This document shows positions 7,809 to 32,498 of a stretch of DNA of 64,000 nt, one piece after another. Position 1 is the first letter of the stretch; each line of letters starts with the position of its first letter. Made by a program: the position numbers and the translations under genes. Below the pieces are notes generated by a model that saw nothing but the letters and a program-made list of their open reading frames with translations, ran no database searches and had not been told where the DNA came from. The stretch comes from Favolaschia claudopus (taxonomy: Eukaryota; Basidiomycota; Agaricomycetes; Agaricales; Mycenaceae), in the NCBI GenBank assembly GCA_037176885.1, contig JAWWNJ010000041.1, positions 868,001 through 932,000 on the forward strand. Reading direction: 5' to 3'.

Positions 7809-9620
7809 TGAAACGGTGCGTGTAGGTGTAGGCGTGAAATATACCGAAATATAAAATCACAAAATCTAATCCAATACGACGTGTGTGTGTGTGTGTGTTC
7901 GGGGTGGCGGGAGCACGTATCGTCCCTCAGAATACTTGTGCAAGCTTCGATCAATCAAGGTCGCTACGTTTGAGCGGGACGAACTACTAGATTGTCTAGC
8001 GAGAACGTAGCGGGCAAAACGATTCGCAGCGGGAGAAGCGAAGAGTCACTCTTTCTGAGACTTCGAAATGAGAAATTCTGAGTCTAGCGGGGAGGGTCTC
8101 CGTGCCAATAGAAAAGCGTCGCCCGGTAGTGGATCGTCAACCGGTAAGAAGCTTTCTGGATGACAACCGGCGGGCAGAAGGCGCGGCTCAGCGGGACGGG
8201 GTTCTTATACGACTGGCGCGGCTCTGGCGAGAAGCGGGGCTCTTATGTCGATGGCGCGGACACTAACAGTGACCCGGGCAGTTACACCACTACGCGGCGG
8301 CGAGCTCGAACGGGGGTCTTGGTTATACCGCGGAACGGCTGGCACACGGGGCGTCGACGGCGCGGAATCAAGCACGAACGGGGGTCTTGGTTATACCGCG
8401 GAACGGCGAGAAACGGGGCTTCGTATTTCAGGAGGGCTCGGGCTCAAAGGCTGGCGGGGCTCTCAAAGTTCTGGCGGCTCGGTATGCCACAAGTCTTTCC
8501 GTATCACTCGAGTCTCTCTCAGATATCAAGTCTAGTCTCTTTCAAAGTTCAATTCAAATTCTAGAGTCCGCTACAAACTGCCCTTGTCTACGGGTAGGTA
8601 ATTGACTGAGTAACAAAAAGTACACCGGGAGATTAAATACATGCAGCGGGAGCAGAAACAACCAAATAAAATCATGATGAGAGAGTGTCCAAGTTTGATG
8701 CCGCGCCCGCTGGGAACCAATGGTATATTCAGGATTGCGAGTCGTGAGTGAAAAGACTGCCTCCCGGAGAAAGTCCATGCGGGCGGGTGGGTATTGCGCC
8801 TTATTGCAGTGCAATGGCGTGCTGGTTGCCATGTCCCCGGGAGGGGACACGAAATTCTTCCTTCATAATATGGTCTTGCCGCTGGTCGAGCTGAAGTCGA
8901 AAAGGCTTCCCGCTGAGTAGTTAGTCAACGGCTCGACAGCGGTCAAGTTCGTCTCGTCTTCTATCTTCAGAACAGTCTAAGTTCCAGGGAGAATAGGGAG
9001 AGCCGAGTCGCGTTAGCGGCTCGCCACTCGCCGTTCGGGTTGTCCGCAATCAGCGGGAAATGCCCCCGGCAACTCGCCATGTCCTTCTCATCATTCTGAC
9101 AGAGCCGTTGGCTGGATAGCCGCTGGCTCCGCGGTGCTCCCGCTGGCAGTCGGTTAAGTCCCGGCTGTCCGTAATCAGCCGGCGTGCTCGGGTAGAGCCT
9201 GCCGGTGATCCTGTTCGTCGGTAGAGTGGTGGCCGTCCTGAGTTCGAAGTTGAACTCAGTATGGTCCCCCGCTAGATCTTCTTCATGTTGGTCGGCGGGT
9301 GAGCGCCTAACCTCAGGGAGGTTGGTAGTTCCTCTTAGTCGCCTCCAGCACCTCGAGATAGTAGTTTCCCACTAAGTCTCTTGGCCCGGCAGTTTAGAAA
9401 TAGTCAGCGGCAGAGTCTCGCACCCATGTTTAGGGAAACGTCGCTAAGCCGCCGCTACCCGTTAGTGTCCCGCCAGCTTGTCGGCTATCCACAGCAATAA
9501 GATACTGCCCGCGAGGACGGGCATATCTTCTATTATCCTAACCTCACTTCTCCCGCTGATAGGTCTCAAAAATCGATAAATTCCGGGCATTTCATGCCTA
9601 GCCGCTGAGCGGCCCTATCA
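7809..9620 (-). repeat. 3' LTR of the giant Ty3-like element
   Basis: 1,812-bp repeat with TG/CA ends matching 30586-32398. Its inner edge at 9620 abuts the polypurine tract, which identifies it as the downstream LTR. It includes a (GT)n run near 7880-7898. Confidence 0.9.
8307..8407. repeat. Tandem repeat inside the LTR
   Basis: A 33-bp unit (8307-8339) recurs at 8375-8407 with identical sequence and a 68-bp period. Weaker relatives lie just upstream (8190-8260). The copy in the right LTR (about 31084-31184) has a few substitutions in the second unit. Such arrays in LTRs can act as promoter elements; that role is only inferred. Confidence 0.7.
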
Positions 9621-9656
9621 TCTCCCCCTTTCTAGATTTCAACTCTCCCGAGTTGA
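9621..9656 (-). promoter_or_regulatory. Polypurine tract and adjoining hairpin at the 3' LTR
   Basis: On the minus strand a GAAAGGGGGAGA tract (9621-9632) directly abuts the LTR, as needed for plus-strand DNA priming. Bases 9639-9656 form a perfect 7-bp stem with a 4-base loop (GGGA in the genomic RNA sense, a GNRA-type loop). Both are duplicated at 17167-17203. Confidence 0.75.
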
Positions 9657-10308
9657 CGACTTAGGATCGCCCGCTAGAGATCTTATCCATCTTCCCGGGG
9701 AAGGGGACTTCAAGACAAACTTCTGTCTTGGAATAATTTTAGATAACGAACGGGCCGCCAGTGAGGCCCGGTTCCCGCTCGTCCCCTTTGGTATTTCATG
9801 AGAGAAAAACCTTAACGAAGGACTCGTGGCGACCTAATTTTAGATCCCACTCTACCTCCGCTGACAGTTTCTGGACTCAACTCCTCGCCGCGGCCGGCGA
9901 TGCCGTCATTTTCATTATGAGGCGTCATTCCTGCCTTTTTCGGAAGTACATCAAATTAGAGAAGCGCTCGAATCAAACTCTAACCCTGCGCTCTCTAAAG
10001 CCGTCCTATTCATCCGCAGTTTGGAATGTTTGGGATCAAAGAAGCCGCGGGGCCCCCCCGCTTCTTCATTCAAATGTTTTCTCGGAATGGCTCTCGAGAA
10101 TCCCATCAAACATTCAAACTCCGACTCCTCAGGGTATAAAGAGTCGAGAGGTTTCTGGGTGGATTCCCCACCGATTCCCTGATTGGGTACCCCCTTGCCC
10201 TCTCATCCCTTCATTCGTTCCTTCTGTCTTTCGCCCGCCGACTGGATTTCTGGCGCGTTGCACCGGGGAGCTCTTCTTCACTCATTCCTTGACGCTACAC
10301 CCACGGCA
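9621..10308 (+). promoter_or_regulatory. Upstream region of the first antisense cargo gene, with TATA box
   Basis: Between the PPT and the first cargo ATG there is no gene. A TATAAA at 10135-10140 in GGGTATAAAGAG lies 169 nt before the ATG at 10309, suggesting that the cargo gene has its own plus-strand promoter. Confidence 0.5.
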
Positions 10309-13300
10309 ATGGGTCCCAAACCCAGCGGCGGCTCTGCCTCTCGCCCCGATTCTCGTTCTTCTCATCGCGCCCCGGCCGCTTCCTCTCCCCTGCCGGTTCG
10401 CCGAAAACAGCTCTCTGGTCCTGGACAACCGCCCGCCGCTTCTTCCTCGAAATCGACCAAAGTCCCTCCGTCTCAGCCGCAGCCTTCTAGTGTCGACTGG
10501 TTTGCAGCATGGCGCGACAGGCCGGAGGAGTGGAAGATCTTGCAGGAGTTGGTCGTCCCGGAGAAGCTCGCCGACTACTCGCAACAGAAGATCGGCAAGA
10601 TGCTTCGTGCCATTCAAGACCCGCTGGTGAGTCGCGACGTCTTTTCTCTCCTTTCTGTCATTGTTCAATTTTTATCTAGAAGGAGCACCGGGCAGTCCTG
10701 TCGGCCGCTCAAAAAGGCCTCGAGCCGCCGCCCATGGCCATGGCCATTAGCGTCCATCTTCAGAAGGCCATCGAAGCGTACGACCCGGACGAACACCTGC
10801 CCGATATACAGGCGCTTCGATATCGCAAGACCCTCCTCAAGGAGAAGAAGGTGTGTGCTGCCCGTTTTTGCCGTTGGCTCCCGCTAATCCTTCTCTCAGC
10901 TGTATATGCCCCCGGCCCCTACTGAGGCAATGGAAGCGTTCCCCATACCGCCGCCGCCGACGACCCAACTCTTCGTTCCCAAGAGGACCAAAGCCGCCTC
11001 GGTGAGTTTCGTTAATTTCCCACCGGGCGACTCTGACTACGTTCTTTTCTTTAGGCTGCGTCTTCGTCCGGCAAAGTTAGCGGCAAGGCCGCACCCGCCG
11101 CCAGTGACTCTGGAAAAGTCAGCGGCAAAGCCGCCGCCGCGGCTGCTGAGACTGGAAAAGTCAGCGGAAAGGCCGCCACCAAGGTAAGTCGGGGTAACCG
11201 CCAATCGCTTCTTTTCCTAATTCTTTCATATAGGGGGAGGACACGCCCCGGCCCCAGCCAAGGAAACTCCCGAATTTCACGAAGACGGTGAGTTTCTTCT
11301 AGTTTATCTCGATTCTTGCCGGCTGACCATTCATGTTTAGTCCACCTCCACCACCGACGATCCCAAGCCCGAGCGGGTCAAGGTGATCAAAAAGACCATC
11401 AAGGTCCCCGCCGACACCCCGACCGCCAGCGGTAGTGGCACCAAACGTAAGGCCTCGACCGGCGCCGAGTCGTCCCCCTCAAAGAAGGTGAAGGAAGACA
11501 AGGCGGGCAAGGGCAAAGCGGCTAAGGCCCCCTCTCGTAGTCAGGTAGTTGTTGCCCGCTGCTGTCCCCAATGTAAGGCCGACATAGAATTAACAATAAA
11601 CTTTTCGTAGTCTGTCATCAGCGTCCCAAGCTCCGGCGATGAGCGCGTCCCCGACTTCGAAATTCGTAAGTCAGTCCAACGCCGCCTGCTTTCTGTGCTA
11701 AAATCTTTCTCAGTGATAGAGACAAAACCGCCCGCCGCTCGAAAAGCCAAGAAGACCAAGGCCGCCACCGTCGACACCGTGCCTTCACTCAAAGGGCAAG
11801 GCACCCGCGCCGCTCAACTCGCTGCCCTGGCGGGCGTTGGCATCAAGCCAGCCAAGCCGGTGAGTTCCTATTGACGGGGACATTCGTTCGCTAACACGTT
11901 CGCCTTAGCTCCCCGAGCAGCCCATCAAGTCGATGGAGCCGACCAAGAAGAAGACCAAGACTCGCCCCGAGGGGGAGTTCAGGCCGCCGAACAAGGACGT
12001 TGTGAACAAGTTGTTCACCAACTACCCTGGGGCCGCCCGTCGCCAGGACCTCCCATACGACCCCGAGAAGGAGCAGTTCGCTCTCGTCGCCGATCATCTC
12101 ATCGGCAACCTCGAGTTGAACGCCGCCCACGTAAGACCGTTTTGTTTCCTTTCTCAATTCATCTTTCTAATTTTTACTTCCGTCTAGAACGGCCCCCGCT
12201 GTTTGCGGTGCATCGCTTGTGGTAGCAAGTGCGAGTCCACCGCCGTCCCGGGCGAGTGCACCGCTTGCGCCAACCGCAAGTCTACCAAGGACTGCACTTT
12301 TCTCCTCGACGGCGAAAAGCTCAGTTCCATGGGCTCCGGGCTTAAGCAATGGGTTTCTATGACCCGGCCCGGTAAGTCAACTGCTAACTTCCTATTTAGG
12401 CCCGCTGACCCTTTCAACAGAGTGGTTCGACTTGCACGCCGATGTCAACGCTGCCGCCGACACCTGCTTCGCCATCCAGGGCGCCTTTGAAAAGGCCACC
12501 TGGAATTTGAACCAGAAGTCCTTTAAGATGCTTCTCTCGGTCTTAGTCACCCGCCGCGAAATTCAGCGGGAGGACTTCCTCAAGCGCTTTGCCGGCGAGG
12601 ACCGCGAGGAGCGGGAGAAGAATATGGACCAGGTTCTGCGCATCGCCATGACCCAGGGCTTGACCGCGTCGTCGACTATTAAGTCGAACCGCCGCTGGCA
12701 GTATTACCCTAACGAGGTCATCGACGAAATCCCCATCCCCGGCTTCGAGGACGCCTACGCCTTTTACGAAGCGAAGGACCGTCAGGACCAGAACATCCCG
12801 CTCGCCTTCTACCTCATCCCGGCTGAGCCCGAACTCTCGATTCCGACACAGTGGGTCGAAGTGCAAGTAAGTCTCATTCTTTCTTTTTATTTATTCTTCT
12901 GGGCCGCTGACCCTCTTATTCCCGTAGCCGGAGGACTGCGTGGACCTCTTCCACGACTTGAAGGGTGAGGACGCCGCCGAAGAGATCCCCGACGGCGCGA
13001 AGGTCCGTCAACGCCTTCTCCTCGACGGCAAGGGCCCGATCAACCTCGACCCGAACGACCAAGACGGGAACGTCTTGCCTTACAGCTGGGAGCACAAGAG
13101 CGTGCCCGGCTTCTTCAAGATGTTGTACCGTAAGGGTACATTCTTCGAGATCCCCGACGCTCCTCCACCAGAGCCGAAGCGCAAGGGCAAGTCCAGCGGC
13201 AAGGTGAAGTCGTCTTCTGTGGTTCACGACGACGCCGACGACGAGTTCAAACCCGACCCAACTTCCCAAGAGGAAGACATGGGCGAGGCCCCGGACGACC

Positions 13301-13758
13301 GTACGTCCCCTTTTCTTTTCTTCCTTCTAATTCTTTGCTAAAGTCGACTTCCCCCGTTAGCCATGGATATCTCTCACCCGCCGACTCCTGAAAAACGCCC
13401 GAAGGGCAAACAGCGGGCAGTCGACCCGCCCATCCCTTCGTCTAGTGATGAAGAGGAAGGAGAGTCCGGCGAGGTGGGTGCACCCGCTTTCGACGACTTC
13501 TTAGCTGAGTCGTTTGCACAGGACGAGTCCAGCGGCGAGGAGTCCAGCGAGGCCGAGGTACGCGGAAGCGTCCAGGGTGACGCCGACGAGGAAGACGACA
13601 GCGATCTCGAGGAAGTCCAAATCCCCGGGACTGCCGATTTCGCAGCCAGCGGCGAGGAGGACCTTGGGCCAGAAGTCGATGCAGCGGGCGAGGAAGACGT
13701 GGATATCCACCTTCCCGATCATCCTGCTCCTTCGGGCGACGACGCGGTCGAGAGCTGA
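10309..13758 (+). CDS. Antisense cargo gene 1: 13-exon Cys-cluster protein, 933 residues, unknown function
   Basis: Exons 10309-10626, 10680-10850, 10900-11001, 11055-11183, 11234-11287, 11341-11544, 11611-11665, 11714-11859, 11909-12130, 12188-12371, 12421-12866, 12928-13300 and 13361-13758 join in phase without a stop. Introns are 48-66 nt. The N-terminal half is basic and low-complexity, with repeats of SGKVSGKAA (exon 4) and basic clusters like TKRKAS that could direct it to the nucleus. Exon 10 encodes a Cys cluster (CLRCIACGSKCES... CTACANRKSTKDC), shared with the next three genes. A helical region follows, then a C-terminal acidic serine-rich tail. The gene lies inside the retrotransposon, antisense to gag-pol. 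I recognise no named domain; a zinc-binding nucleic-acid role is inferred from the cysteines. Confidence 0.75.
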
Positions 13759-14535
13759 GTGGGTAAGCACGCTCCCCCTTTCTGGAGTCTTATCTTCCCG
13801 CTGACCACTTTGCAGCCTTTCCTCGTGGGTGGGCGGGCGGCAAGTAAGCAATTCGCCCGACCTCCCGCTGCCTTTGACTTCTGGCTGACTTCTTTCTAGA
13901 AATTTTTCTGTATTCATAATCGCGGGGGCCGAGCGGCCCCCAATATCATCAAAAGCTACGGGTACGGGTCCCATAATCCCGCTAGATGCGAACTTGTCAT
14001 GGCCTGGTGGAATTCCACCCGCCATGACCCCCAATAAAAATCAAATGCCCCATAGTAGTATAACATCGTGTGCCGGCCAAAGAGCCGATGAAAAATAAAA
14101 GCTTTTTACGATGTCTCCTCTTTGTGTGAAACTCTTAAGTCCATTTTAAGTTCCAAGTCAAAATTCCCGGCTAGAGCCTCTAAGTGACTTGTAAGAGGTT
14201 GGAGCGAGGGATTCTGGCCAAGTGCTGCGCCCGTCGGCTGAGTACGACTTAGAGAGCGAGCTGAACATTGAACTTATCGAGTTTTTCAACATGCCGAGCG
14301 GCAACGGTGCTTATCACCGGGGCCATCAGATAGCGGGGATTGCCCGCGGCATCTCATCCAGCTATCAGCGGCTGCCCTCGGACTCCACTGGGTGGCTAGT
14401 TCCTTATTTCTCCCGCTAGTCTCGTAAGAGTGATAACGTAGAGTAGAACTGGCCCGGCGGCCCGAGCTGCCCGCTACCGTACTTGTATTCGATAGGGGTA
14501 GATAGCCAATCAAACCATCTTTTTCCTTCATTATC
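13759..14535. other. Non-coding interval within the cargo
   Basis: No convincing gene. A spurious frame at 14222-14419 lacks splice-compatible continuation. The sequence probably holds the 3' end of cargo gene 1 and the promoter of cargo gene 2; no clear TATA box is visible. Confidence 0.4.
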
Positions 14536-15278
14536 ATGCCTCAGCCCGTAGGTGAAGTCTTAATCGACTACCATTCCTTTCCGGTGGTCAGTCAAGACTT
14601 TGTGCGCAAGATCTATACTGTGGTAGGCTGTCCTCAACACATTTCTGCGCCAAGTCCAACCAGCCGCTAGCCGAATCTCGTCTGCACGCCTTGTAGTGAC
14701 GCCGGCGGAGATTGTGAATTTCTTCACTGGGGCTCGAAGTGCACTCGGTGCCGGGAGGCGAAGGTCCCCAAATGCTTGTTCGCCGGGGTGGATTGGTTCA
14801 AATATACCTATCCCTCTTCAACCTTTCCGACACTTTTCATCTATCGCAGCGGTAAGTCCTGCCGCTCTTCGAATTCTCATCTTTCTTATTCTATCCAGGC
14901 GGCACGTTGTACGACCTTGCATTCCTCGAACTCTGGTACCACTTGCGCCTCGGCGGCTTAAGCCCCGATATGTTTATAGGTTCGGTGGACGGTGAGCCCG
15001 CTGACTTCTTGCGTCGGCGGGAGGAATTTGCTGGCGACCTTCGTGACTGGGACATTGCTCACGACCTAAACCACGCCGCTCACTCCAGCCGGCGGCTGTA
15101 TTTCTACAACATCCTATCTCGAGTTTTACGCGAGTGGCGTACCCAGGATCGCTCGATCCATGCCCAGTGCGACGTCGACGCAGCTATCCTGCTCCATGAT
15201 ATCAGGCGACGGGACTCTAATGTTCCGACCGTCGTGCCCTTGGCCCAAGGCACGCGCCGCCAGACCTTCGAGCGGTAA
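14536..15278 (+). CDS. Antisense cargo gene 2: Cys-cluster protein, 215 residues
   Basis: Three exons (14536-14622, 14671-14851, 14899-15278) join in phase. Exon 2 encodes CTPCSDAGGDCEF..WGSKCTRC......C, a cluster of six cysteines with a conserved WG before the second CxxC. Exon 3 is helical, with many Arg and Leu. Exon order, the two intron phases (0 then 1) and the 181-nt middle exon match cargo genes 3 and 4, so the three are tandem paralogues. The pattern resembles Zn-cluster folds, but spacing differs from the classical Zn2Cys6 motif of fungal transcription factors. Function unknown. Confidence 0.68.
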
Positions 15279-15450
15279 CCCAGGCTAGTAGCTTTTCCCC
15301 GTTAGGGTCAAATAAATCTCTTTGCCCGGTCGCAAGCCGTTATCGTGATGTCTGATTCCTTCTGAGCTTTTGGTCCGGCAGCCGGTGGTATTCACCCGTC
15401 GGCTATAGGTTTTACTTATAGCGGCCGGTGCCCAGTGAGTCCTTCGAGCG

Positions 15451-16122
15451 ATGCCCGCCTTTTCTTTGGCAGCGACTTTTTACTCAGAACGCTTTAGGAG
15501 CTTCACCGGTCCCTCAGAGTACCAGCTCGTACTTCAAGCTCAATTTGTGGGTCTTTCGTTCTTTCTCAGTGTTCTCCCGCTGACGGTTGCCTCTTCTTAG
15601 CCGGAGTACGAATGCCAGTGCTGCCTCAAGAACTACCGCCATTGCATCTGGATTCAGTGGGGTGAAGCCTGCCTCAGCTGCATGTTCATAGGCCGCGCCG
15701 CCTTGTGCTGCTACACCAAGAAGTCCGTCTGGCAGGCCGAGAACAGCCGTCGTCGCGACACTCTCCTAGCCTCTCGGCCAGGTAAGTCTGCTTTCTATCT
15801 TTATACCGCTCAGCGGGGGTCTTAGTGAATTCTAGCTCCCTCCGCCGGACGGATCGCTCAGTTTGACTGGTACGCCCGGGCTGCCGGTGCCCGGCTCGAC
15901 GAGAAGAGATACATTGACGTGCGTACTTGCACCATCCTCGCCGCCAGGTCCATGCTCGGCACCCTTGGGTTTGGCCAGCTACGCTTCTTGTACGGACTGT
16001 GGTTTGACGCGAAGGGGGCGGGCGTACGAAAGGAAATTGTAGATCTCCTCCGGGATAGGTTAGACGCTGTAGCCCTCCAGTCCGGCGCAAGGCTCCCGCC
16101 CGTCATGTTCATCGGGCCGTAA
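15451..16122 (+). CDS. Antisense cargo gene 3: Cys-cluster protein, 181 residues
   Basis: Exons 15451-15528, 15601-15781 and 15836-16122 join in phase. The first donor is a weaker GTACTT. The middle exon (181 nt, exactly as in gene 2) encodes CQCCLKNYRHCIWIQWGEAC LSC and further cysteines. The last exon encodes a helical domain ending DLLRDRLDAVALQ, similar to the IRERLDVLANN segment of gene 4. It stands between genes 2 and 4 in the same direction. No known family recognised. Confidence 0.62.
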
Positions 16123-16360
16123 GCGTAGTAGGAAATATATTCCCACTGTCAAACGAACTTGCATCTTTAAAACTCTGTTTCAAGCTGCCCGATTAGGAAG
16201 GCTTCTTAGAAACCAAAGCTTCCTCGTGTTTTTGCCCAGCGGGAGCTCAGCACCTCGTTGGATATTCCACATGTATTGCGGATCTTCCGGGAGCATCGGG
16301 TGCAATGAGTCCCGCTGTCGATCTCTCTGTTTTTGGGTCTCCCGCCAGGTCTCAGAGAGA

Positions 16361-16367
16361 TATTTAA
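16361..16367 (+). promoter_or_regulatory. TATA-like box before cargo gene 4
   Basis: TATTTAA lies 39 nt before the ATG at 16406. Spacing suits a short 5' leader; inferred. Confidence 0.35.
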
Positions 16368-16405
16368 GCTGGCGGGAAGGTCCCATTTGCTTCAGTCGTC
16401 TACTC

Positions 16406-17034
16406 ATGTCTTTGCTGGAACATCCACTCTTCCCGAATGACCCCGTCGGCCCGCTCAGGGAGTACTATGTACGTTCCTGAACATTTTGCCTCGGGTAATT
16501 CCTCATCATTCGGCAGCCTGGCCGGGTATGCTCTGCGTGCCTCAACGCCCGTTCTCATTGCGAGTTTACTGAGTGGGGAGCGCCGTGCACCCGCTGTTAC
16601 TTGCTGAAGCACAACTGCTCGTACACCCAGACCGCTGAGCTGGCCGATGAAATTGCTGCCCGCCGGCACCGTTTCAAAGAGGGTCCCGATCGTAAGTGAC
16701 GACTTCTTTCTCATCTGTTGCGCCACAACTGATTCCCCGCTCGCTTCTAGCGGCTACGAAGGAACAGCTAGCTGCTTGGGACGTCCTTCATGAGGGGACC
16801 CTGGCGCAGTTCCCATTCTGGCAACAATACCATTCTGTAATCGTCGGGCGGAACGTCGCAGAGGCAGCCCAACGGCTGTCTTTTTACTTCGAGGCCCGCT
16901 TGGTTTTCCATCTTCTTCAGGAGGCCAAAACGGCTAATCTCCCGGCTGCGTATGTTGCTGTTATCCGCGAGCGGTTAGACGTTCTCGCCAATAATCTTTT
17001 CCTGGATCTTCCGGCTAGGATGCGGGCAGTGTAG
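16406..17034 (+). CDS. Antisense cargo gene 4: Cys-cluster protein, 173 residues
   Basis: Exons 16406-16468, 16517-16691 and 16751-17034 join in phase. Exon 1 ends with REYY, comparable with SEYQL of gene 3. Exon 2 encodes VCSACLNARSHCEF..WGAPCTRC......C, the clearest version of the shared motif. Exon 3 is helical (FPFWQQYHSVIVGRN and VIRERLDVLANN). With the same intron phases as genes 2 and 3, it appears to be a tandem duplicate. A zinc-dependent nucleic-acid or protein-binding role is possible but unproven. Confidence 0.68.
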
Positions 17035-17166
17035 ATACAGGCACATGTACTTTCGGATAGTTCGTTCCGATAACACACGCTCCCGCCCCATGTGAGGCCT
17101 TGGAAACATTTATTTCTTGGTAAAGATGTGCCCGCTGCCCTCAAATGACGTGCTAGGTGACCCACC

Positions 17167-17203
17167 TCTCCCCCTTTCAGAAATCTCAACTGTCCCCAGT
17201 TGA
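17167..17203 (-). promoter_or_regulatory. Internal second copy of the polypurine tract and hairpin
   Basis: Bases 17167-17178 are identical to the 12-nt PPT at 9621-9632. They are followed by a perfect 7-bp stem with the same loop (17186-17203). One stem pair differs from the 3'-LTR copy in both arms (C-G versus G-C), keeping pairing. It could be a central PPT or a relic of an older element end. Confidence 0.6.
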
Positions 17204-17385
17204 TCGATCAGAGGAAATTCAGGTTCCCCGGCAGCAAATTTTCGTGCCACGGAAGCGATCGGGTGCGTTTGAAATAATTTTCTGCGCCACCGGCGGGTGC
17301 ATCTACCATAAATGGTAATCCAAGTTCGGCCGTTGACCAAATTTCGTCCAAATTATCCTTACGGCGTTAATTACGGCCGCTCGAG

Positions 17386-17391
17386 TATAAG
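17386..17391 (+). promoter_or_regulatory. TATA box of cargo gene 5
   Basis: TATAAG in CGAGTATAAGAAGC, 64 nt before the ATG at 17455, a normal core-promoter distance. Confidence 0.45.
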
Positions 17392-17454
17392 AAGCAGCGG
17401 GCGGACAGGTATACCCCCAGCCTCGTCTACTGTCTTTACTCTGCTTCCTCCAAA

Positions 17455-18396
17455 ATGTCTCAAAACGATTACAACACCGTCAAAGCCGATTTCCTCAAGG
17501 CTATGGACGTTGCCGCCAACCTCGTCAAGTATTCGCCGCCCGAGTCTCGTAAAAACCAGCTCAAGGACGTCGCCGAGATTCTCGTAAGAGCCGCCGGCTA
17601 CATTGACCAGTCTCGTTTTGTTAACATTATTCTTTCGTTCGTAGGCGCGCCTTCCCCCGCTCATGCCTTTCATTTTGGAAGACAAGAGCGCGGTTCTTCG
17701 TGAGGCAATCTTCACCTCGCGTGAATATTACCACTCCTTGTACGACCCGGATGGTAAACGGGACGTGACCTTCCCCGCTGGGTACGATGCCCTGCGGCGG
17801 ATCACCAAGGCCATTCACGAAGACCGTTCCAAGAAGGCGATCCCGCCCGTCTCCCCCGCTCCCAAGGCTCCCCCTACCGGTCCCAAGGCTAAATCAGCCA
17901 TGGCGGGCAAGAAGGGTGCGCGCGCTGTAAGTCGCACGTTATTTCTGCTTTAGCTTCTGTCATTTATTTCAATCTTTCAGCATAGCCCGGCCCCCCGCTA
18001 AGAAGGGCAAAGGCAACAAGCGCGCTCGCATCGACAACGTCCCGTTCCACGAGGACTCCTTCCTCACCAACGGTGAGTTTCCCGTCCATTGTTAGTGGTT
18101 TCCCGCTGAATGTTATTACAGCAACGGCTGAGTTTTACGCTTCGGCACCCGCTTCAGGTGCTGTTGTCGACGAGGCCGCTAGCGTCGTTGAGATGGGCAC
18201 CGAGTTCATGAGCAACCACCTTGCCTTGCGCAAGCGGATGTATTTTATCATGGTCGAGCTGGCGGTCATCCACGAGAACCTTCGCAGCTCTCTGGCCCGG
18301 CGCGAGCAGCTCCTCGACGAAGGAGAGAAGATCTCGGCTCGCCTTCGCGACTTCCCCGAGTCCTCCTCTGCCGGCGTCGATGCTCATGTTCCCTGA
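17455..18396 (+). CDS. Antisense cargo gene 5: basic and helical protein, 253 residues
   Basis: Exons 17455-17583, 17645-17915, 17986-18072 and 18122-18396 join in phase. The N-terminus is helical (FLKAMDVAANLVKY). A middle basic segment (RPPAKKGKGNKRARID) looks like a nuclear localisation signal. The C-terminus is a probable coiled coil (around LRKRMYFIMVELAVIHENL and EQLLDEGEKISARL). Intron 2 must use GTGCGC...ATAG to stay open; the more canonical GTAAGT at about 17929 with TTTCAG at 17980 would lead to an early stop. The gene converges on the end of pol, with 222 nt between the two stop codons. No Cys cluster. Function unknown. Confidence 0.6.
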
Positions 18397-18618: not shown

Positions 18619-19674
18619 TCATTCCCGCGCAGCGGCTTTCGTGGCAGAACGAGTCTTTCGTTTGAAAGGCAGCGGCTCATCCGTGTCAGGTTCCTCTTCC
18701 TCTTCTTCTTCCTCGGGCAAGGCCTCCTGCAGAGCCGGCTCTTCGTCAGCCGCCCCGCTGGGGGTTAACCTTACATTCCCGAATTGGAAGTCATCTCCAG
18801 AATAACCGTCTTCCTCCTGGACCATCTTTTCTAGCGTCTCTGCCGAGAGGTCGATTAAGTCGTGAATGTCAGCGGGCAGCTTGATAGAGCGCCGCTGCTC
18901 GAAGGGGACCACTCTGAACTGAGCAATCTTCGATTGAAAGACAGAGCCATCCATCTCCGCTACGATATAACTTCCACCTTTCGTACGCCGGATGATAATT
19001 ACTGGTCCCAGGTATCTGGCGGCCATCTTCGTATTCAGCGATTTCTCAACGGTCGTATTCCTGATGAGCACCAAGTCTCCCGGCTCGAAATGGTAATCTT
19101 CGATAGTATGTTTATGCGCTATCTCATACCGGCGCAAATTCGCTCGTTTCTCGTCGGTGACCCGCTCCCTCATCTGTTCGACGTGAGTGGCGTGCTTAGC
19201 CAGAGCCTGGGCTCGATAGCCGATTAACTCAGCGGTCGTTAGAGTCCTGCCGGGCAGATGCACTAGCCAAGTCGCTTCTTCTATATCCAGCGGGAGGATT
19301 GGATGTGCGCCCGTTACCATAAAGTAGGGTGAACAACCCGTTCCTCGTCGAATAGTGACCCGGTCAGCCCACAACATCTGCGGGAAGAACCAGTACCACT
19401 TGCTGGGATTCCCGCCAGTGGCTTTCCATAAGGATTGCCTCATCGAGAAGTGCCCATTTTCGACTTTCCCGTTGGCTTGAGAATTATACGGCGAAACTCT
19501 AATATTTCTTATGCCGTATTTAGACTCAAGGTAGGCTACGGCCGCTAGGAAGGCCGGCGCGTTATCTGTCACCAGTTCCTCCGGGCAACCCCACCTACAA
19601 ATCACATCTTCAAGTAAGAACAAGGCCAGCGTTCTCACCAGAGGTGGTAAGGGGAAGACTTCATGTCTGGCCAC
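18619..19674 (-). pseudogene. pol: C-terminal half of the split integrase
   Basis: This frame continues the Pol of 24167-27245 after the nested insertion; coding from the retroelement begins at 19635. It supplies the second and third catalytic residues: Asp in TDNAPAF (residue 37 of this frame) and Glu in QANGKVENGH (residue 72), the D-35-E spacing of integrases. A DNA-binding C-terminal domain (YLGPVIIIRRTKGGSY) follows, then an acidic stretch and a basic tail, with no chromodomain. No stops or shifts occur within it. Separated from the promoter and the first half, it cannot form a full integrase in this copy. Confidence 0.85.
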
Positions 19675-19925
19675 AGCCAGTTTTGAAAATTGTCTTTTTA
19701 CGCACGTGCAGCCAGGGCCTGGCTACAGTCAGAAACGGGTTTTTTGCGCTGGCAGCTTTCCCGCCCGGGCTCCGGAATGACTTTGATGCATCATTCCGGT
19801 TGCTTGGACGGCATTTTGACATCGGACTATTTTTCAGCTGATTATGCTCAGATATTTGATTTTAAGTCAAATAAACAGAATATATTCAAAAATGATTAAA
19901 ACGACAGGATATATGTAATAGGAAA

Positions 19926-20046
19926 GGGTTAAGCGCTCCGGCGCTTAACGACGAAAGCAGTAAAAGAAGAAGAAGCGCCCGGCGCTTAGTACCGAAAACG
20001 CCAAAATGAGGCGCAGGCATATTCGGTGTTAAGCGCCAGGGCGCTT
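19926..20046. repeat. Three palindromic AAGCGCC/GGCGCTT motifs
   Basis: The hairpin motif with arms TTAAGCGC and GGCGCTTAA or close variants occurs near 19929-19950, 19973-19988 and 20030-20046, just inside the left inverted repeat. Subterminal palindromes in DNA transposons can be transposase sites; this is inferred. Confidence 0.6.
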
Positions 20047-20625
20047 ATTTGCATCAGGGCGGCAGGGCGGGCAGAATGCGGCAGGCAGCGGGCAGCTTGG
20101 GCGTGTTGACAGCGACGTCGAGCGGGTGGGAGCGCAGGTAGGTACTGCATCCATGGGTAGTTTGCATCAGGGCGGGCAGAGCGCCGCGGAAGCGGCAGGA
20201 ACGGCGGGCACAGCCTCTCGTTGCAGATTGTGTGCACGCGCTGGAGCGAATGTGGGGCTGGCGGCGTGTGGCGACCGCGGGGCGGCGTGCGCGTGTTGAG
20301 GGCAATGTCGGGCAGGTGGGAGCGCAGGTAGGCGGGCATAGGTGATACAGGTCTGTAATCGCTGATAGGCGTCGAATCGTTGGCGGGTGCTGGACAATAA
20401 CGATCGTCGGGTTGGCGGAAACGAAGAAACTCACTCGGTTTTGATTTCTAGCGCGGCATTCTGAGTCGGTCGGCACGCGGAGCGCCAAAACAACAATGCC
20501 GATGTTGTCAGCTTTGTTCTGGTGTGTAATAGTTTTTCTGTTTCTTTTCGTCGTCAAAACTGAAACACTCACTTAGTTTTGATTCTGGCGCAATTTTCCG
20601 AGCGAATCGGCTCACACAGCACCGA
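20046..20625. repeat. Degenerate internal duplications in the TIR insertion
   Basis: TTTGCATCAGGGCGG occurs at about 20047 and 20161, GTGGGAGCGCAGGTAG at about 20126 and 20318. A segment with 'ACTCAC(T)(C/T)(G/A)GTTTTGAT' occurs near 20429 and 20566. This suggests repeated unequal duplication; no coding function seen. Confidence 0.5.
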
Positions 20626-23600
20626 AACAGCGTCTTAAGTCTTGAGGGTGTCGATGCGGCCGGCCGGCGGCGTTGGTTGCGGCATCTTGCGCGGTGGAGA
20701 AATTGACGGGAGGGCGGGGAGGCGGCGGAATGCGTCGGGACGACGATGTCAGCGGCGTTCGGGCAGTCGAGAACGAGCGGTGGTGGCGGGTAGGTCCTCG
20801 AGATGGGGAGGAGATGGGCTAGAGAACATGGGGATGTCGTTAGTACGGCGCGGGAGGAGGGAGGAAGGGCGGGACGCACCGTATATGTATGTACGCATCG
20901 GCGTAGGCGGTGTGGATGACGCCGTCGAGAGAGCGAGTAGGCGGCGGGGTGGTGCAAGGCAGAGGTGCACGAGGGTGTTGTGGCGGGAAGGAGGATTGTT
21001 AGTGTCAACGTTGCTTGTTGTTTTTGCCGGTGTGGTGGTTGTCGGTGGCATTGTCGGCGACTTGCTGGTTGTCGTGAGGTCAAGATCTTGCGCAAGAGGG
21101 AGAAGGGAGGGAGAGGGGAAGAGAGGGGAAAGGTCGTGAATGTGGTGAGCTGGCAGCGTGAGTCACACACCTCGGAAACGGTTCCGAGTGGCGCGGGTAT
21201 CGGTGCGAGATCACCGATACTCAACGCCAGCGTCCCGTTTTGGCAATTTTGCCATTCGGAAACACAAATCTCATGTATACTCATTTGCTCGACCTTCTTT
21301 CGAAATTTTATTACATCTCAATGGAACTACTACAGCTCTTCCCCATGTTGTAATAGAAACAGCGACTTAATCAACAATTGACTTGCTTTCGGTGCATCAA
21401 ATTCCATCATCAGTTAGATTCGGGTTTGGCCTCAGCAAATGGTCAACAAATCTTGAGCATCACATTCAACACTACTCAGCCGGTCAATTAAATTGCTTCT
21501 CGTTACTAATGTGCAGTAATAGCGGATCTCCTGAACAGAGAACAATGCAAAGTCATCTGGGAGCCACAGACCGAAAACAGCACCATGGATATCAGCTTGA
21601 ATGGCGGACTCGTCCGCAGAATGAGCTAGTTAGTATTCCTGTGTAGTTTGAATGTATAGAACTATGGACTGAAGACATAGTACAGTTTTTAGCCCACATG
21701 CTTTCCTTGCCGCATTCTGGCGAATTTAGCCACTTGTCGGGCAAAATCAAAGGCATAAACTGCTTCAGGAACTTCAAGATAGATCATATTTACAAGATAT
21801 GGAACACTTCAACATTTTTATATTACCAGGACACAACAGTTTCAAAAGGTAAACATAAGTATAGTGTTATTCACTGTGTATCTCGCTGTTTTCTTGGAGT
21901 TCGTCACCGAATTCATATATCACCGTGAGGAGCGTGTTTATCATGCTGATTTTGCAATATGTTGACCTTGTAGGCTCTAAAATTATTATACGAGGCTCAG
22001 ACACGTAGAAAACGCGTTGGATGTCCCGCAACACGTCGAACTCGTCGACGGCGGGAGCCCGGACCGAGTCGTTGTCACGGTGGTCACACGGCGCTAATTG
22101 GGCGCTTATAATGAACTGCCAGTCCAGCTCTCGAAGTTCGTCGTACAATAGGATTTAGACTCAGATATTCTCGGAGAAAGAGCTAGCATACAAGTTGCAT
22201 TGGATATTGGGCGCAAAATAGAGATACAAAGGAAAGCTAGTGAGGTTTCTCGTAGCTTCGGTAAGGGACTCGAAGCTCCACACAAGTCCACACATCATGA
22301 TACCCAGCTCGGTATACAAGCAAGAAACCAGCTAGAGTGATTTGTGATTAGTGAAGTCATTTGGGACTCATCGAGAAAAGATCTCACCATTTAGTACACG
22401 AAATGCGCCGGTATTAGATCCCGACAGACAAGTGGTGTATTGCAGCTTCCTGTCGTACATATAGGCATCTGGACGGGGTGATCTGTATCTGCAAACACTT
22501 TAATTCGGGGTATCTGAGTTGTAGATGGCAAAGAAATGGACTGGCCTGGGTGTGCAGATACATCTAGGCCAATAGAGGAGCGCCCAGTGTGTTTTGAGTC
22601 GAAGTTTGAAATCGCACTATTGAGGGGACAGAAGGACACCCAAAACGACACGAATTCACTTGCTTTGCGGTAGGGATTAATGAGGAAAGGACAAACCATT
22701 TATATCAGACCAAAGTGGAGGGATCAAAATGAAAAGTCGGCGCGTCGGCGCGTTTTCGATGATGGCGCCGTAGGGTGTATAGATGCATAAATAAGACATC
22801 CGAACGCTTGTAGTACGCGGTTAGTTTGAGGAATTTGGTGGAAGAATGGGCCAGAAACAGGGTACACACTCTAGACAGATAAAGTCAGATTCTGACCACA
22901 CAAAGACGCGAGAATTTGAGCGGGAAAGAGACCCCGGCCTTCGTGTCGCGTTCGCAGGCGTTTAGAGAGCGATAAGGGGAGCCCGTTGCAGCTTGAGTTT
23001 GCGGGATTTGACTCAGAAATGGTTGAGAAATGGCTTTCACAGTCTCAGTACATAGAGATCAAATAGTTGACCTAAAAACATAGTAAGCTTGGCTGTTCTC
23101 GAGTGCAGGCACCGAAAGCTGCTGCAATCGTTTAGACATAACATAGAGGTATCTGCTGGGGCTTGGGTTCGAGAGATTTGAGCCGGAGATCATGGAGAAC
23201 AAGAGGGTAAGATGGTGTGGACTTGAGGATTAGGGACCAGAGATTGAATCGCATTTTGTGGAGCACTTTGGAGAGATATTACAGCGGAGAGCTCGTAGTC
23301 GTCTAGATGTGTGTTGGAAAGACCAAGGGCAACTTTGAATCATGAGATTTGGTGCAAAAACGAGCAAGAAACGGACGCACTTTGCTGAGTGGCTCAAATG
23401 ACATCATCCCCCAAAAGTTATTCCCATCCCCAATTTGTCTGACTTTGGACCGTGTTGGGCAATCCTGGAAGCAATTGGAAGCTTCGAATTCGATCCAATC
23501 CAAAGGATGGTTGATGGGTAGCCGCAACCTGAGGGATCGTCTGAATACTCAAGAAAAAAAGACGAGACAAAGGAAGTGGCTGTGACTAAGCAGTGAGAAG

Positions 23601-24146
23601 CGATCAATCAGCAGAGACAAACAGCACACTGGACGCAATAAGTACAAGTCGAGTAAAAGTCCATTTTACATAATTTGAAGTTGTCCAGGTAAAGGGAATC
23701 ACCTATTATAGGAACAGCATTCCAGCATGATTTACATTGCTTATATCTGTAAGAAAATCCAAGAAAATTCAGTACTGGGGGGATGATAAAATTTGATGCG
23801 CTTTTTGGTGGTGCGGGATTGATGCGGAATGTCGGGAACAAAAGGTGGGAAATGATTTTCGATGTCGGGAGCAAATGATGTTTGATGGTGATTGTCAATT
23901 GATAACATTGCGTGTGAATTAGGTATTGCAGAAAAGAAATTTGACATTTTCAAATCACAATCAAATTAATATTTATTGTGGCCCGGGAGTGCACCCAAAT
24001 AGGCAAAGAAAGGCTGCTTGATCCCGGCCCCGGAGCCAAAAAAGAATAGACTGAAAAGCCTTTGCTTTGTGGCGCTAGCCAGGCCCTGTCTGTACACAAG
24101 TAAAAAGACAATTTTTACAACTGGCTGTGTCCAGTACATTTAGTCT

Positions 24147-27100
24147 TTATCTTACAGAGTGGGCTCGCGTTCTGGCATTCTCGTTCTTTATCGGCCGCGC
24201 TTCTATGTAGCTGCTGAGAGAGCAGCGGGCGTCGACAATTTTATTGAAGCCGTTGGAAGGAGTACCAACGACCATCACGTCGACGTGTACCACCTGGAAG
24301 AGCGAAGGGGTATGGGTCACAACGGGCGGGATCTTCAATAAAGTCCTTTGCCTCAATTGACACAATTCGCAAGTCTTAATGTACCAAGTGACATCCCGCT
24401 CCATCTCAGGCCACCAGAAGCGCATTTCTATCAAGGATTTGGTAGCGAAGACGCCGCGATGAGCTAGGCTATCATGAGCCGCTCGCATCATATACATTCG
24501 GTGTTCTTTGTCTACCACCAACTGATGTGCGCTCCCCGTCGTGGATTTATGATAGAGTTTTCCATCCGCATCCTCGAAGAAGCCGGTGGCGAATCGCAGG
24601 AAGGCTTTGTATTCCTTGTCGTTCATGCCATCCGGGCGAGCCAGGGTGTTCCGCCGCCATTCCTTCATGAGGAGCAGCCGCTCGTCCGCTAGCTTCGCCG
24701 CTACAGATCGTTGGTCTTCCGAATACGGCTCCCGCTTCGTCGGGTCGTACTTCAATTCGAGGTCAGGGATCAGCGGCTCGCCTGCTGGCTTGTCGTCACC
24801 CTTTGACTGAGAGAAGACTTCGAAAACATATTCTCTACTAAGGCGGGTGTAAGCCCAGGCCTGTTCGGCGTCGTTTTCGAAGTCAGCGGCTGACCGAGCC
24901 TCATCTCCCGCCACTTCAGCTACCATATATCCACCTCGGGTGTCAATATCGTGCTTGAAATCCTCGAAATTCTTGAGAGGCGGCCAAGCACTACTTTCGG
25001 GATGAAGACCCGGCGGTTCATTATTATCGAACTCGTCTTCTGGATGATCATACTCTGGATCCCCCGGCTGAATACGCCGGCGGGAGAGCCCATCTGGCCC
25101 GAAAGTCTTGCCCGGCACATGCTTCAAAGTGAAATGAAACATTAAGATCTCCTCGATCCAGCGGTTGATCGTAGCGTTGGGTCCCATCCCCGGGTGATCC
25201 AACATGCCTTTGAGGTACTGAGCGTCGGTCTCGACAACCAGCTTGCGGCAGCCCAACAGCCAATATTGCATGTGGTCTAGCGCCCTCTTCAAGCCAAACA
25301 ATTCCCGCTTGGGCTGAGAATATCTCGACTCTCGTTCATTCAAAGGTATGGAGCTGAAGCGGGCATAATACCGCTTATTTAGGTCCAAAGGATCCCGCTG
25401 GTACACATGCACTCCAACTCCAAGGTACGACGTATCAACCGCCAGCACCACTTCGGTGTCCCATTCATATCTTATAGGTCTAAGCGCGGGACATTCTCGC
25501 AAAGCCTTCTTCAAAACTTTCATGCAGGCGTCTTGGGGCGGGCCCCACTCGAATATGACTTCTTTCCGGGTGAGCTTCTGAATCGGTTCAGCCTTGACCG
25601 TGTAGTCTTGGATGAACATCCTCATAACGCCCACAGTTCCCAGAAAGGCTTTCACGTCGTGGAAATCCTTCAGCGGGCCCCAACGCTCAATGACGCCGAT
25701 TCTATCTTCATCCGGGCGCATGCCCTCGTATGAGCAGACATGGCCGACCACCTTAAAGGTTCCCCGGCAAATCTGCAACTTCTTCCCGCTTACAGTCGCC
25801 CCAGAATAGGCTAGCCGGGTAAGTACCCGGTTGCAGTCTACCAAGTGTAACCACACGAAGACCCTTATCAGCGGGTTCTCTGGGATGGTCTCGTACGTCC
25901 CGTCAGGCTTCTCATATCGAGTGAAGCCGCCGGCGACAGGCACGTCATCTATATACGGCCGGGTAACCGCAGGAATTTCGTCTCGCAGGATGTAGGTTAC
26001 GTCTTCGTGGAAGATCGGCACAGAGTTGGTCCAACCCTGCGGCAATCTTACCAATCGAAGCGCCCCAAACGGAGTTTGGAAGGTCGTGTAATCTCGAGAT
26101 TCCGGGTCAATCAGCCGGTGGTTGTACCCAGAATAAAGATCAAACGTGGACCCACAAGCCCTTCCTGCGAAATGTTCGGCTAGATCCGCGGCGCCGGGGG
26201 GCACCCCAGAGTGCGCAATGGTTACCGCGTTCAGCGGCTCCAACGAATGCACTAACCGAATTGACTTCTTATCACTCTTCAGAACTCCAAAGTACTTCGT
26301 GCGGTACGAGCCGTTGGATGGTTCGTAGATATTGGCGTCGATACTCGCCCTAAGCACCTTGCAGACTTCTTCCAGTTGTCCCGGCGGGATGGGAATATTT
26401 CTTTCCACCCAGACCTTATGGTCTGCTTTCACCGGGAACTTGACTGGCGGGAAGAAATCCGTCCTGAAAGTTCCTCGTTCACTGTCATCCCATGCTACTG
26501 TATTTTCGTGTATAGATAACATGTGATGAACCAGCTTCATCTCTTCATCATTCAGGAACCCATCATTATGCAGTTCGTCCACTACCGCTTTCCTTTCCGC
26601 TGTGTACCTCCCTACGGGAACGAACTCTGGCGGGTGAGGGTCTAGCGGGACGAGATTCTGCAGCGGATCCCCAATGATATTTCTTTCTATCCTGAACTCG
26701 GGAGGGAGCGGCTCGAGGACCGGCTTTACTTTCAGCGCTACCGGCTTATATTTCTTCGAGAACACCTCCTTCACCTCGACTTCAGGCGGGTGATCCTCGG
26801 GAACGATTTCCTCCATCAACACCACTTTCGTTTCGTTGTGTTCGAACCCGGGCACCACCCAGTCGGCGTAGTCACAGCACTGACAGCGCTCCCCCGCTGA
26901 ATGCCGAGACCGCTCCTGTTTGAGCGACTCAACATCGGCACCGGCTGTCATGAACACAGCGGCTGGGTCCTTCAGTTTCTCTCTGACTTTATCCGTTATA
27001 TTAGCTACGATGGCTACATAGGATTCGCCGACGTTCTTTCCTTCTGTCAGCTGCTCATTATATTCCTGAAATAGCTGAGCAGCGGGTTTGTCATCAACTT

Positions 27101-27245
27101 CTGGCATGGCAGCCGCTAGGTAGGCCATTTTCGTCTCGGCCATCGAAAACCCCTCTTCTCCAGATTTCATCAAAGCGCAAATTCTAGGAACATTATTCTC
27201 GTCCAGTTCTATCTGAACCGCTAACTCTCCTTGATGGTTAATCAA
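24147..27245 (-). CDS. pol: Reverse transcriptase, RNase H and N-terminal integrase (split Pol)
   Basis: A 1,032-codon frame. RT occupies about residues 285-500, with FDLYSGYN (first catalytic Asp 369), the LPQGWTNSVPIFHEDV segment and the YIDD active site at 431-434. RNase H spans about 600-725, with acidic residues at 603, 648, 674 and 718. The integrase HHCC zinc domain (H924, H929, C959, C962) and the first catalytic Asp of the DDE triad (HVDVMV, 989) follow. Element-derived coding ends at 24167; the last codons and stop come from the nested insertion. The frame opens with TTG, so it is probably reached by frameshifting from the protease frame. The rest of integrase lies at 18619-19635. 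Confidence 0.88.
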   Translation of the reverse strand: MINHQGELAVQIELDENNVPRICALMKSGEEGFSMAETKMAYLAAAMPEVDDKPAAQLFQEYNEQLTEGKNVGESYVAIVANITDKVREKLKDPAAVFMTAGADVESLKQERSRHSAGERCQCCDYADWVVPGFEHNETKVVLMEEIVPEDHPPEVEVKEVFSKKYKPVALKVKPVLEPLPPEFRIERNIIGDPLQNLVPLDPHPPEFVPVGRYTAERKAVVDELHNDGFLNDEEMKLVHHMLSIHENTVAWDDSERGTFRTDFFPPVKFPVKADHKVWVERNIPIPPGQLEEVCKVLRASIDANIYEPSNGSYRTKYFGVLKSDKKSIRLVHSLEPLNAVTIAHSGVPPGAADLAEHFAGRACGSTFDLYSGYNHRLIDPESRDYTTFQTPFGALRLVRLPQGWTNSVPIFHEDVTYILRDEIPAVTRPYIDDVPVAGGFTRYEKPDGTYETIPENPLIRVFVWLHLVDCNRVLTRLAYSGATVSGKKLQICRGTFKVVGHVCSYEGMRPDEDRIGVIERWGPLKDFHDVKAFLGTVGVMRMFIQDYTVKAEPIQKLTRKEVIFEWGPPQDACMKVLKKALRECPALRPIRYEWDTEVVLAVDTSYLGVGVHVYQRDPLDLNKRYYARFSSIPLNERESRYSQPKRELFGLKRALDHMQYWLLGCRKLVVETDAQYLKGMLDHPGMGPNATINRWIEEILMFHFTLKHVPGKTFGPDGLSRRRIQPGDPEYDHPEDEFDNNEPPGLHPESSAWPPLKNFEDFKHDIDTRGGYMVAEVAGDEARSAADFENDAEQAWAYTRLSREYVFEVFSQSKGDDKPAGEPLIPDLELKYDPTKREPYSEDQRSVAAKLADERLLLMKEWRRNTLARPDGMNDKEYKAFLRFATGFFEDADGKLYHKSTTGSAHQLVVDKEHRMYMMRAAHDSLAHRGVFATKSLIEMRFWWPEMERDVTWYIKTCELCQLRQRTLLKIPPVVTHTPSLFQVVHVDVMVVGTPSNGFNKIVDARCSLSSYIEARPIKNENARTRAHSVR

Positions 27246-28405: not shown

Positions 28406-28491
28406 TTTCTTTCCTGCGGGCGGGCGTGCTTGTCGGTTCTCCGGGGGCTTATCCGCAGTGGGTTTCCCCTTGGCCCCCTTCCTCGAACTCT

Positions 28492-30423: not shown

Positions 30424-30565
30424 AATCTTCTATAGCGGGCCTGGAGCTATCGGCTCAACGGGCGGGTGTATATTCTATTCTCGAGTCAACCGGCGGATGG
30501 TTCGTGCTAGTTTAGAGCAGCGTCCACAAGTGATCTCTTTCGACTTGACACAAATAATCTGTCAC

Positions 30566-30583
30566 CCCTCGCGGTGGGCTCCA
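30566..30583 (-). promoter_or_regulatory. Putative primer-binding site (PBS)
   Basis: Read on the minus strand, two bases after the LTR end comes TGGAGCCCACCGCGAGG, starting with the TGG complementary to a tRNA CCA end. I cannot name the tRNA from memory. Confidence 0.65.
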
Positions 30584-32398: not shown

Positions 32399-32498
32399 CC
32401 GCGTTGGCTACGAGAACCGGCGGAGCTATGGGACAGGTCACTGCGGCATTGAAGTCAGCAATCATCGAAGAATGGGGTAAAGTCCGGCGAGTTGATTC

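Follow-up and report, generated by a model that had tools for sequence, protein, structure and literature searches.

We report that a Ty3-type long terminal repeat (LTR) retrotransposon of the basidiomycete Favolaschia claudopus carries five genes, g1-g5, on the strand opposite to gag-pol, and that these are spliced coding genes of the element family, maintained by purifying selection. The element spans positions 7809-32398 (minus strand) of the 64,000-nucleotide stretch of contig JAWWNJ010000041.1 analysed here (referred to as the window), and the five plus-strand genes lie between pol and the 3' LTR. As the best explanation, to which we assign a probability of about 0.6, the five are antisense accessory genes, of which g1-g4 would encode nuclear DNA-binding regulators of their own element and g1 would be exchanged between copies as a cassette.

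Gene models and location

The exons and introns of g1-g5 were rebuilt from the window sequence. g1 (10309..13758, plus strand, as are the other four) encodes 933 amino acids, has 12 introns and contains a CX2CX6CX8CX2CX8C cluster and an acidic C-terminus. It is followed by three small genes with two introns and a Cys cluster each: g2 (14536..15278; 215 amino acids), g3 (15451..16122; 187 amino acids) and g4 (16406..17034; 173 amino acids), the cluster of g4 having a subthreshold match to Pfam Zn_clus. Together g1-g4 have 18 introns of 47-66 nt and no internal stops. The originally predicted spliced models of 933, 215 and 173 residues were reproduced free of stops, and g3, given before as 181 residues, is corrected to 187.

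The fifth gene, g5 (17455..18396), is broken in the window copy by an internal deletion of ~295 nt and a frameshift. The 253-residue model proposed for it relies on an unusual GTGCGC donor that masks the frameshift; using a GTAAGT donor and the same acceptor a frameshifted product of 195 amino acids is obtained. In most copies compared g5 is ~295 nt longer than in the window, and the intact form seen in other copies encodes 310 amino acids with five introns and canonical splice sites. Residues 1-310 are free of stops in 12 of 15 copies (those in L035, L036 and L040 are damaged); g5 of L042 also matches over its full length (match length only, with stops not scored), and g5 of L043 lies partly beyond its fetched locus. 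Thus, g5 is broken in the window and intact copies exist elsewhere in the genome.

The five genes occupy a cargo region of 9 kb, from the integrase end (18619) to the 3' LTR (9620), and their predicted position antisense to gag-pol within an element bounded by LTRs (7809-9620 and 30586-32398) holds. TATA boxes had been claimed for two of the genes, and we find TATAAA at -174 of g1 and TATAA at -69 of g5, in addition to TATTTAA at -45 of g4.

Purifying selection and intron retention

Copies were compared using 19 ten-kb element loci and one contig end, picked across integrase groups and the g4 and g5 listings. Alignment of g2-g4 included 16 copies (L042 is partial, and L038 and L039 are not alignable), among which g2 is intact in 11, g3 in 11 (12 if L043, whose acceptor is altered, is included) and g4 in 12. 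The copies have one of two bodies, A (window-like) and B, which differ by ~4-9% in the g2-g4 exons.

The ratio of nonsynonymous to synonymous substitution rates (omega) was calculated pairwise on spliced codons by the Nei-Gojobori method (NG86) for 27 hand-chosen, non-independent pairs, within one g1 type (see below) or between bodies. Purifying selection was detected in 27 of 27 pairs and for all five genes (omega 0.10-0.24; Fisher p < 0.001 each), the values being 0.13-0.24 for g1 within type, 0.11-0.13 for g2, 0.13-0.21 for g3, 0.10-0.14 for g4 and 0.10-0.12 for g5. An absence of purifying selection, which would speak against genes of the element, was hence not seen. For five comparisons between g1 types omega was 0.31-0.59 at a synonymous divergence (dS) of 1.35-1.72, which is near saturation. 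Because the spliced codons show omega of 0.10-0.24 and the element is present in more than 100 copies, the spliced genes go beyond what chance would produce.

Over the 16 copies, 95 of the 96 g2-g4 introns have GT/GC..AG borders, and spliced alignment indicated that the g1 and g5 introns are also retained in the copies examined. The introns lie on the strand opposite to the RNA copied by reverse transcriptase, so they would not be removed on that RNA and would be inherited with each new copy. The near-complete retention supports this interpretation, which had been put forward in the original prediction, since it is expected if the copied RNA represents the other strand.

Copies in the genome and association with integrase

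The genome searched was the 264.6-Mb assembly to which the window belongs. The element is present in more than 100 copies, with at least 111 integrase places, at least 204 exon-level matches to g4 and at least 220 to g5. Linkage was counted for 123 g4 and 122 g5 places among the matches listed, omitting further exon matches of the same copies. On this basis, an integrase on the opposite strand is located less than 3 kb downstream of g5 in 102 of 122 places (median gap 232 nt), g5 lies downstream of g4 on the same strand within 8 kb in 110 of 123 places, and 102 of 111 integrase places are accompanied by g5; in one g5 place the nearby integrase is on the same strand. Homologues in this genome are therefore found antisense beside integrase and not mainly as ordinary host genes, and the protein-database evidence on the latter point is weak as few fungi have relatives.

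Antisense genes are also present in two distant elements. In L038, whose integrase is 69% identical, a g5 relative occupies the corresponding antisense position; it is 28% identical and scores 218, compared to 43 and 43 for shuffled sequences. A scan of L038 for relatives of g1-g4 gave none clearly above shuffles. In the L039 element (integrase 65%) an antisense gene with introns adjoins pol; its product, from exons read by eye, combines a Zn-type cluster with an acidic tail. Several of the genome's Ty3 families thus probably carry antisense cargo. A low-complexity CCGAAC-rich repeat (6638-6790 of L039) lies upstream of the L039 antisense gene.

These data bear on the possibility that the five stem from a single capture of host genes and ride along as passengers without function for the element. 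Such capture would account for introns of the kind that host genes have, gene transduction by elements is documented (PMC7264820, in the part available), and 20 of the 122 g5 places lack an integrase among the matches listed. The listed integrase matches are, however, incomplete: five of the 20 fall in fetched loci, four of which (C121, C161, C171 and C211) do hold integrase sequence and one (C7) is a truncated copy. Moreover, integrase accompanies the genes at the majority of places and in either body, omega is 0.10-0.24 between element lineages, the two distant elements also have antisense genes, and the sole database relatives are F. claudopus hypothetical proteins. We therefore consider passengers very improbable. 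The truncated copy (L042; G000 C7:3244000-3253990) consists of g4, g5 and the integrase end followed by non-element sequence, and it is apparently truncated within the integrase.

Forms of g1 and probable cassette exchange

Three forms of g1 were seen, type I (window), type II (43-45% identical to I) and type III (25-29% identical to the others). The six cysteines are invariant across eight g1 sequences covering types I-III, and in six models of these types introns coincide in position and phase at columns 118, 570, 631, 784 and 924 of the alignment. The database relatives of g1 are four F. claudopus hypothetical proteins, P0001 (II-like), P0002 (I-like), P0003 and P0004 (both III-like), whose best spliced matches among the fetched loci are 69, 93, 97 and 85% identical, respectively. 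Searching the whole genome with P0001 gave exon matches at ~93-98%, 76-80% and 52-57%, which suggests that there are further g1 forms beyond I-III.

The conservation just described is relevant to whether the antisense transcripts act as RNA, through antisense or double-stranded RNA regulation, with the proteins mattering little. They could pair with the part of the genomic RNA covering pol to the 3' LTR, and a role of this kind has been discussed for plant elements (PMC7264820, in the part available). The strong constraint, however, is on amino acids and frame at spliced codons and not on RNA alone, and the g1 cysteines and several intron phases are kept at 25-29% identity; this makes an RNA-based role quite improbable.

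Among 17 copies (16 loci and the window) the combinations of body and g1 type were A-I 3, A-II 2, A-III 2, B-I 7, B-II 1 and B-III 2, i.e. all six combinations are present and each of the three forms occurs with both bodies. In type III copies (four of four, both bodies) identity to the window LTR is 92-100% (bins) up to ~8834-8850 and then drops to 66-82%, and similarity to the window returns at ~14033-14056, just beyond g1. Type II differs from the window only at ~10035-13819, and its U3 (the unique 3' region of the LTR) is nearly the same as that of the window. The last kb of the LTR sorts by body in seven copies (A-A 98.5-99.0%, B-B 97.8-98.6%, A-B 95.5-97.1% identity), and the U3 side and g1 sort by type III vs I/II. 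Given established reverse transcription, the shared break at one point in the LTR would mark the border between U3 and the repeated (R) region, which probably lies near 8834-8850 in the 3' LTR. Such a pattern would be left if R-U5 strong-stop complementary DNA were transferred between molecules, onto an RNA packaged in the same particle, and synthesis switched back once past g1. g1 may accordingly be a highly diverged regulator that is swapped as a cassette, in form III along with U3, by template switching in reverse transcription. Within every g1 type, separate A and B versions exist (dS 0.4-0.7), which indicates that exchange is probably rare and old. The U3 end and the purine tract (9600-9640) are ~100% identical in the three type III copies whose match reaches them, the rest of U3 being 66-82% identical.

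Upstream of g1, a promoter-like block of 97 nt (10059..10155, plus strand) with TATAAA at 10135 and the words ATTCAAATG and GAGAATCCCATCA aligns in eight of eight copies of types I-III. In type III the flanking sequence fails to align on both sides and the block itself aligns. We propose that g1-g5 would each be driven by a promoter of its own, which for g1 would be this TATA-containing block.

Candidate regulators and the AGCGGG word

Zn2Cys6 proteins have the pattern CX2CX6CX5-12CX2CX6-8C and prefer CGG triplets. This six-cysteine spacing is found in g1-g4 and not in g5: each of g1-g4 has one CX2CX6CX8CX2CX6-8C cluster, which was matched by 0 of 20000 shuffles for each of the four. g2-g4 align around the cluster and have an invariant WG between Cys3 and Cys4, suggesting that they arose by tandem duplication. 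Ahead of its cluster g1 has basic, serine-rich stretches, and its tail is acidic, as read from the sequence. It is due to the Zn2Cys6-like cluster, and in g1 the basic stretches and acidic tail, that we propose g1-g4 to be nuclear DNA-binding regulators that would act on the element's own DNA. They would most likely activate or de-repress the U3 promoter, perhaps through the word AGCGGG, which is scattered along the element.

The genes might instead encode structural or trafficking accessory proteins (env-like, for nuclear import, or gag partners), with Cys clusters that bind RNA or protein and aid particle assembly or nuclear entry. Short Cys clusters are also found in RNA-binding proteins, a g2 piece has a weak match (E 0.03), short of the cut-off, to an RNA-binding CCCH family, and the same selection and linkage would be expected. 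We nevertheless regard this as unlikely, given that gag has a CCHC knuckle of its own (identified by eye) and that a nuclear regulator would better account for the conserved promoter-like block, the Zn2Cys6 spacing and the acidic tail of g1.

The most enriched hexamers in the element (18.3 kb) are CAGCGG, with 81 occurrences vs 12.6 expected, and AGCGGG, with 80 vs 14.5 (order-1 expectation). AGCGGG is enriched in coding and non-coding parts and on both strands; it ranks in the top three when the LTR, cargo and gag-pol are each scored alone, and in the top five for the type II and type III cassettes. In element coding sequence it occurs 40 times, compared to a mean of 11.0 and a maximum of 23 in 500 synonymous shuffles, and in the diverged type III LTR parts 10 times in 908, 8 in 750 and 7 in 605 bases (window U3, 5 in 787). 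Counts elsewhere were 21 vs 15.6 expected in the right flank, 3 vs 2.1 in an insertion nested in the element, 3 vs 2.7 in L038 and 9 vs 6.8 in L039, and four host open reading frames (ORFs) have 1-4 vs shuffle means of 0.8-2.1. An order-4 Markov ranking did not single out AGCGGG, since its inner words are enriched too. g1-g4 and AGCGGG could together form a sequence-specific self-recognition system, in which the antisense Zn2Cys6-like proteins would bind the CGG-containing word and keep the element transcribed or unsilenced, with g1 diversifying and swappable with U3, as a fungal counterpart of the VANC/VANDAL system; we offer this extension tentatively and think it rather doubtful.

Several observations weigh against the regulatory interpretation as a whole or in part. 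g5 lacks a Cys cluster, and we assign it no role. Pfam Zn_clus (PF00172) is the sole family suggested for a g4 exon piece, at 17.3 bits vs a cut-off of 21, and for the L039 gene piece, at 16.8 bits, and whole g3, a g1 piece and a g2 piece do not match Zn_clus. A g1 profile, run for g1 only, found no solved relative in the PDB, and a predicted structure of the g1 core (P0002 and three relatives) was left unused because of its predicted local distance difference test (pLDDT) score of 35. The remaining g1 intron positions vary between types, and the type II and III models were fitted by alignment to the type I protein, which biases them toward shared introns. Moreover, types I and II have nearly the same U3, so that the pairing of g1 with U3 is not strict; the idea that every U3 is strictly controlled by the g1 type it accompanies is thereby weakened. 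As to the word itself, GCGGGA, which is related, is enriched in the nested insertion (9 vs 2.1), the left flank has a mild AGCGGG excess (11 vs 5.3), and conservation between bodies in non-coding sequence (20 of 24) is only slightly higher than for control hexamers (237 of 314). In coding sequence 11 of 17 are kept from the window to L031, no better than controls (361 of 541); in the opposite direction, from L031 to the window, the numbers are 11 of 12 vs 361 of 551.

The enrichment may instead be a mutational or compositional quirk unrelated to the Cys-cluster proteins, which we rate at somewhat below an even chance. Per-site conservation barely above controls, the left-flank excess and a host ORF (44488-46830) that reaches its shuffle maximum of 4 are consistent with a quirk, as is the spacing between AGCGGG pairs, for which a search found no fixed value. 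It is less easily reconciled with counts that surpass synonymous shuffles and with enrichment that extends to coding and non-coding sequence, to either strand and to the diverged g1/U3 cassettes.

Other searches with the cargo proteins were negative: a Pfam scan of the five gave nothing above cut-offs, an NCBIfam scan of P0001-P0004 found nothing, relatives of g2-g4 sought by profile were not found, and a phage collection and one viral-contig scan gave zero relatives.

Relation to known systems

The region from pol to the 3' LTR is known to contain antisense genes in the plant elements Grande, RIRE2, Retand and PvRetro13 and, as brtn, in the fungal element Boty of Botrytis cinerea (Zhao et al. 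2011, via PMC7264820 and PMC8365987); in the available parts of PMC7264820, PMC11963269 and PMC8365987 their functions are given as unknown and regulation is suspected. Boty resembles the present element, by description only, in being a fungal LTR element with an extra antisense gene in this position, but the parts available name one gene, compared to five genes here with 23 introns in intact copies, Cys clusters and exchanged g1 cassettes. The original statement that no fungal precedent is known is thus to be narrowed in view of this single antisense gene; it applies to the multi-gene, multi-intron antisense set, which is unreported in the literature searched (few subscription papers covered).

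Retand, Grande and RIRE2 share with the present element a long region from pol to the 3' LTR with antisense ORFs in most copies, and Grande gene23 has its own promoter while TRP28 is predicted to bind DNA (PMC11963269 and PMC7264820, in the parts available). TRP28 (PF04195), the Retand domain, has no match in the five cargo proteins. The plant elements differ in kingdom, and multi-intron genes and g1 exchange set the present element apart; 'intron' does not occur in the main text of PMC11963269 or PMC7264820. Compared to Gal4-type Zn2Cys6 factors the spacing is the same, but here the matches do not reach the Pfam cut-off, g1 has its cluster in an internal position, and g2-g4 are very small.

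VANDALs are DNA transposons. In Arabidopsis, VANC anti-silencing proteins bind short motifs that have accumulated in VANDAL elements (PMC5735166 and PMC10398659, in the parts available), and a diverging element-encoded protein together with a short DNA motif accumulated in the element is the likeness to our case. For VANC, according to the same parts, binding has been demonstrated, whereas here the pairing of motif and protein is proposed from sequence and the motif is dispersed, also in coding sequence, and was not seen in tandem repeats.

Structure of the element and its genomic arrangement

The window element has LTRs, a primer binding site, a polypurine tract and the order protease, reverse transcriptase (RT), RNaseH and integrase, as in Ty3 elements. 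The LTRs, the polypurine tract, the primer binding site and the ORFs described here are on the minus strand. The LTRs are ~1.81 kb each, with 1786 of 1813 aligned positions identical and ends TG..CA; comparing them places the 3' LTR at 7809..9620, with U3 at the 9620 side, and the 5' LTR at 30586..32398. The polypurine tract adjoining U3 (9621..9636) and the primer binding site TGGAGCCCACCGCGAGGGG (30565..30583) were read from the sequence. No 5-bp target duplication was seen around this copy. Both LTRs contain an imperfect 54-nt direct repeat with CGG-rich ends (8293-8423 in the 3' LTR), and a 243-nt exact direct repeat (32498-32740 and 33875-34117) lies just beyond the 5' LTR.

The gag ORF (28492..30429) has the CCHC knuckle noted above and no Pfam match, and it is followed by an aspartic protease ORF (27242..28501; Pfam Asp_protease_2) and an RT-RNaseH-integrase ORF (24147..27305), in which RT_RNaseH and Integrase_H2C2 are above cut-off and RVT_1 is slightly under. 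The low-coordinate end of the latter runs into the nested insertion (19636..24166, ~4.5 kb, strand not assigned), which we take to be hAT-like. It has arms resembling terminal inverted repeats and a 7-bp target duplication, GCGTTCT, and splits the integrase, the C-terminal part of which (18619..19722) as read begins with 28 codons of insertion sequence. Four integrase places among at least 111 read into the insertion, C41 (window), C43 twice and C456, and the interrupted copy may itself have been copied.

Element units repeat ~18.6-18.8 kb apart in G000 C268, C73 and C337, and in L050 the element primer-site sequence stands before an LTR, which together point to tandem arrays with shared LTRs. 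Several contigs start at the same base of a copy. A subtelomeric location was considered for these and rejected, as C19:1-10000 opens inside the element and has zero telomere repeats; judging from this one contig end, the shared starts would be assembly breaks in tandem arrays, and identical contig ends may inflate the copy counts.

Implications

If the proteins regulate the element, the strand opposite to gag-pol would hold a regulatory region of several genes with introns, giving the element a logic close to that of complex retroviruses and a different build. The arrangement shows how a reverse-transcribed element can keep introns over long periods. More than 100 natural copies are available for testing, and pairing the proteins with AGCGGG would be a simple test of self-specific anti-silencing in fungal retrotransposons. 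Finally, such element genes may be annotated as host hypothetical proteins, as four g1 relatives are in Favolaschia claudopus.

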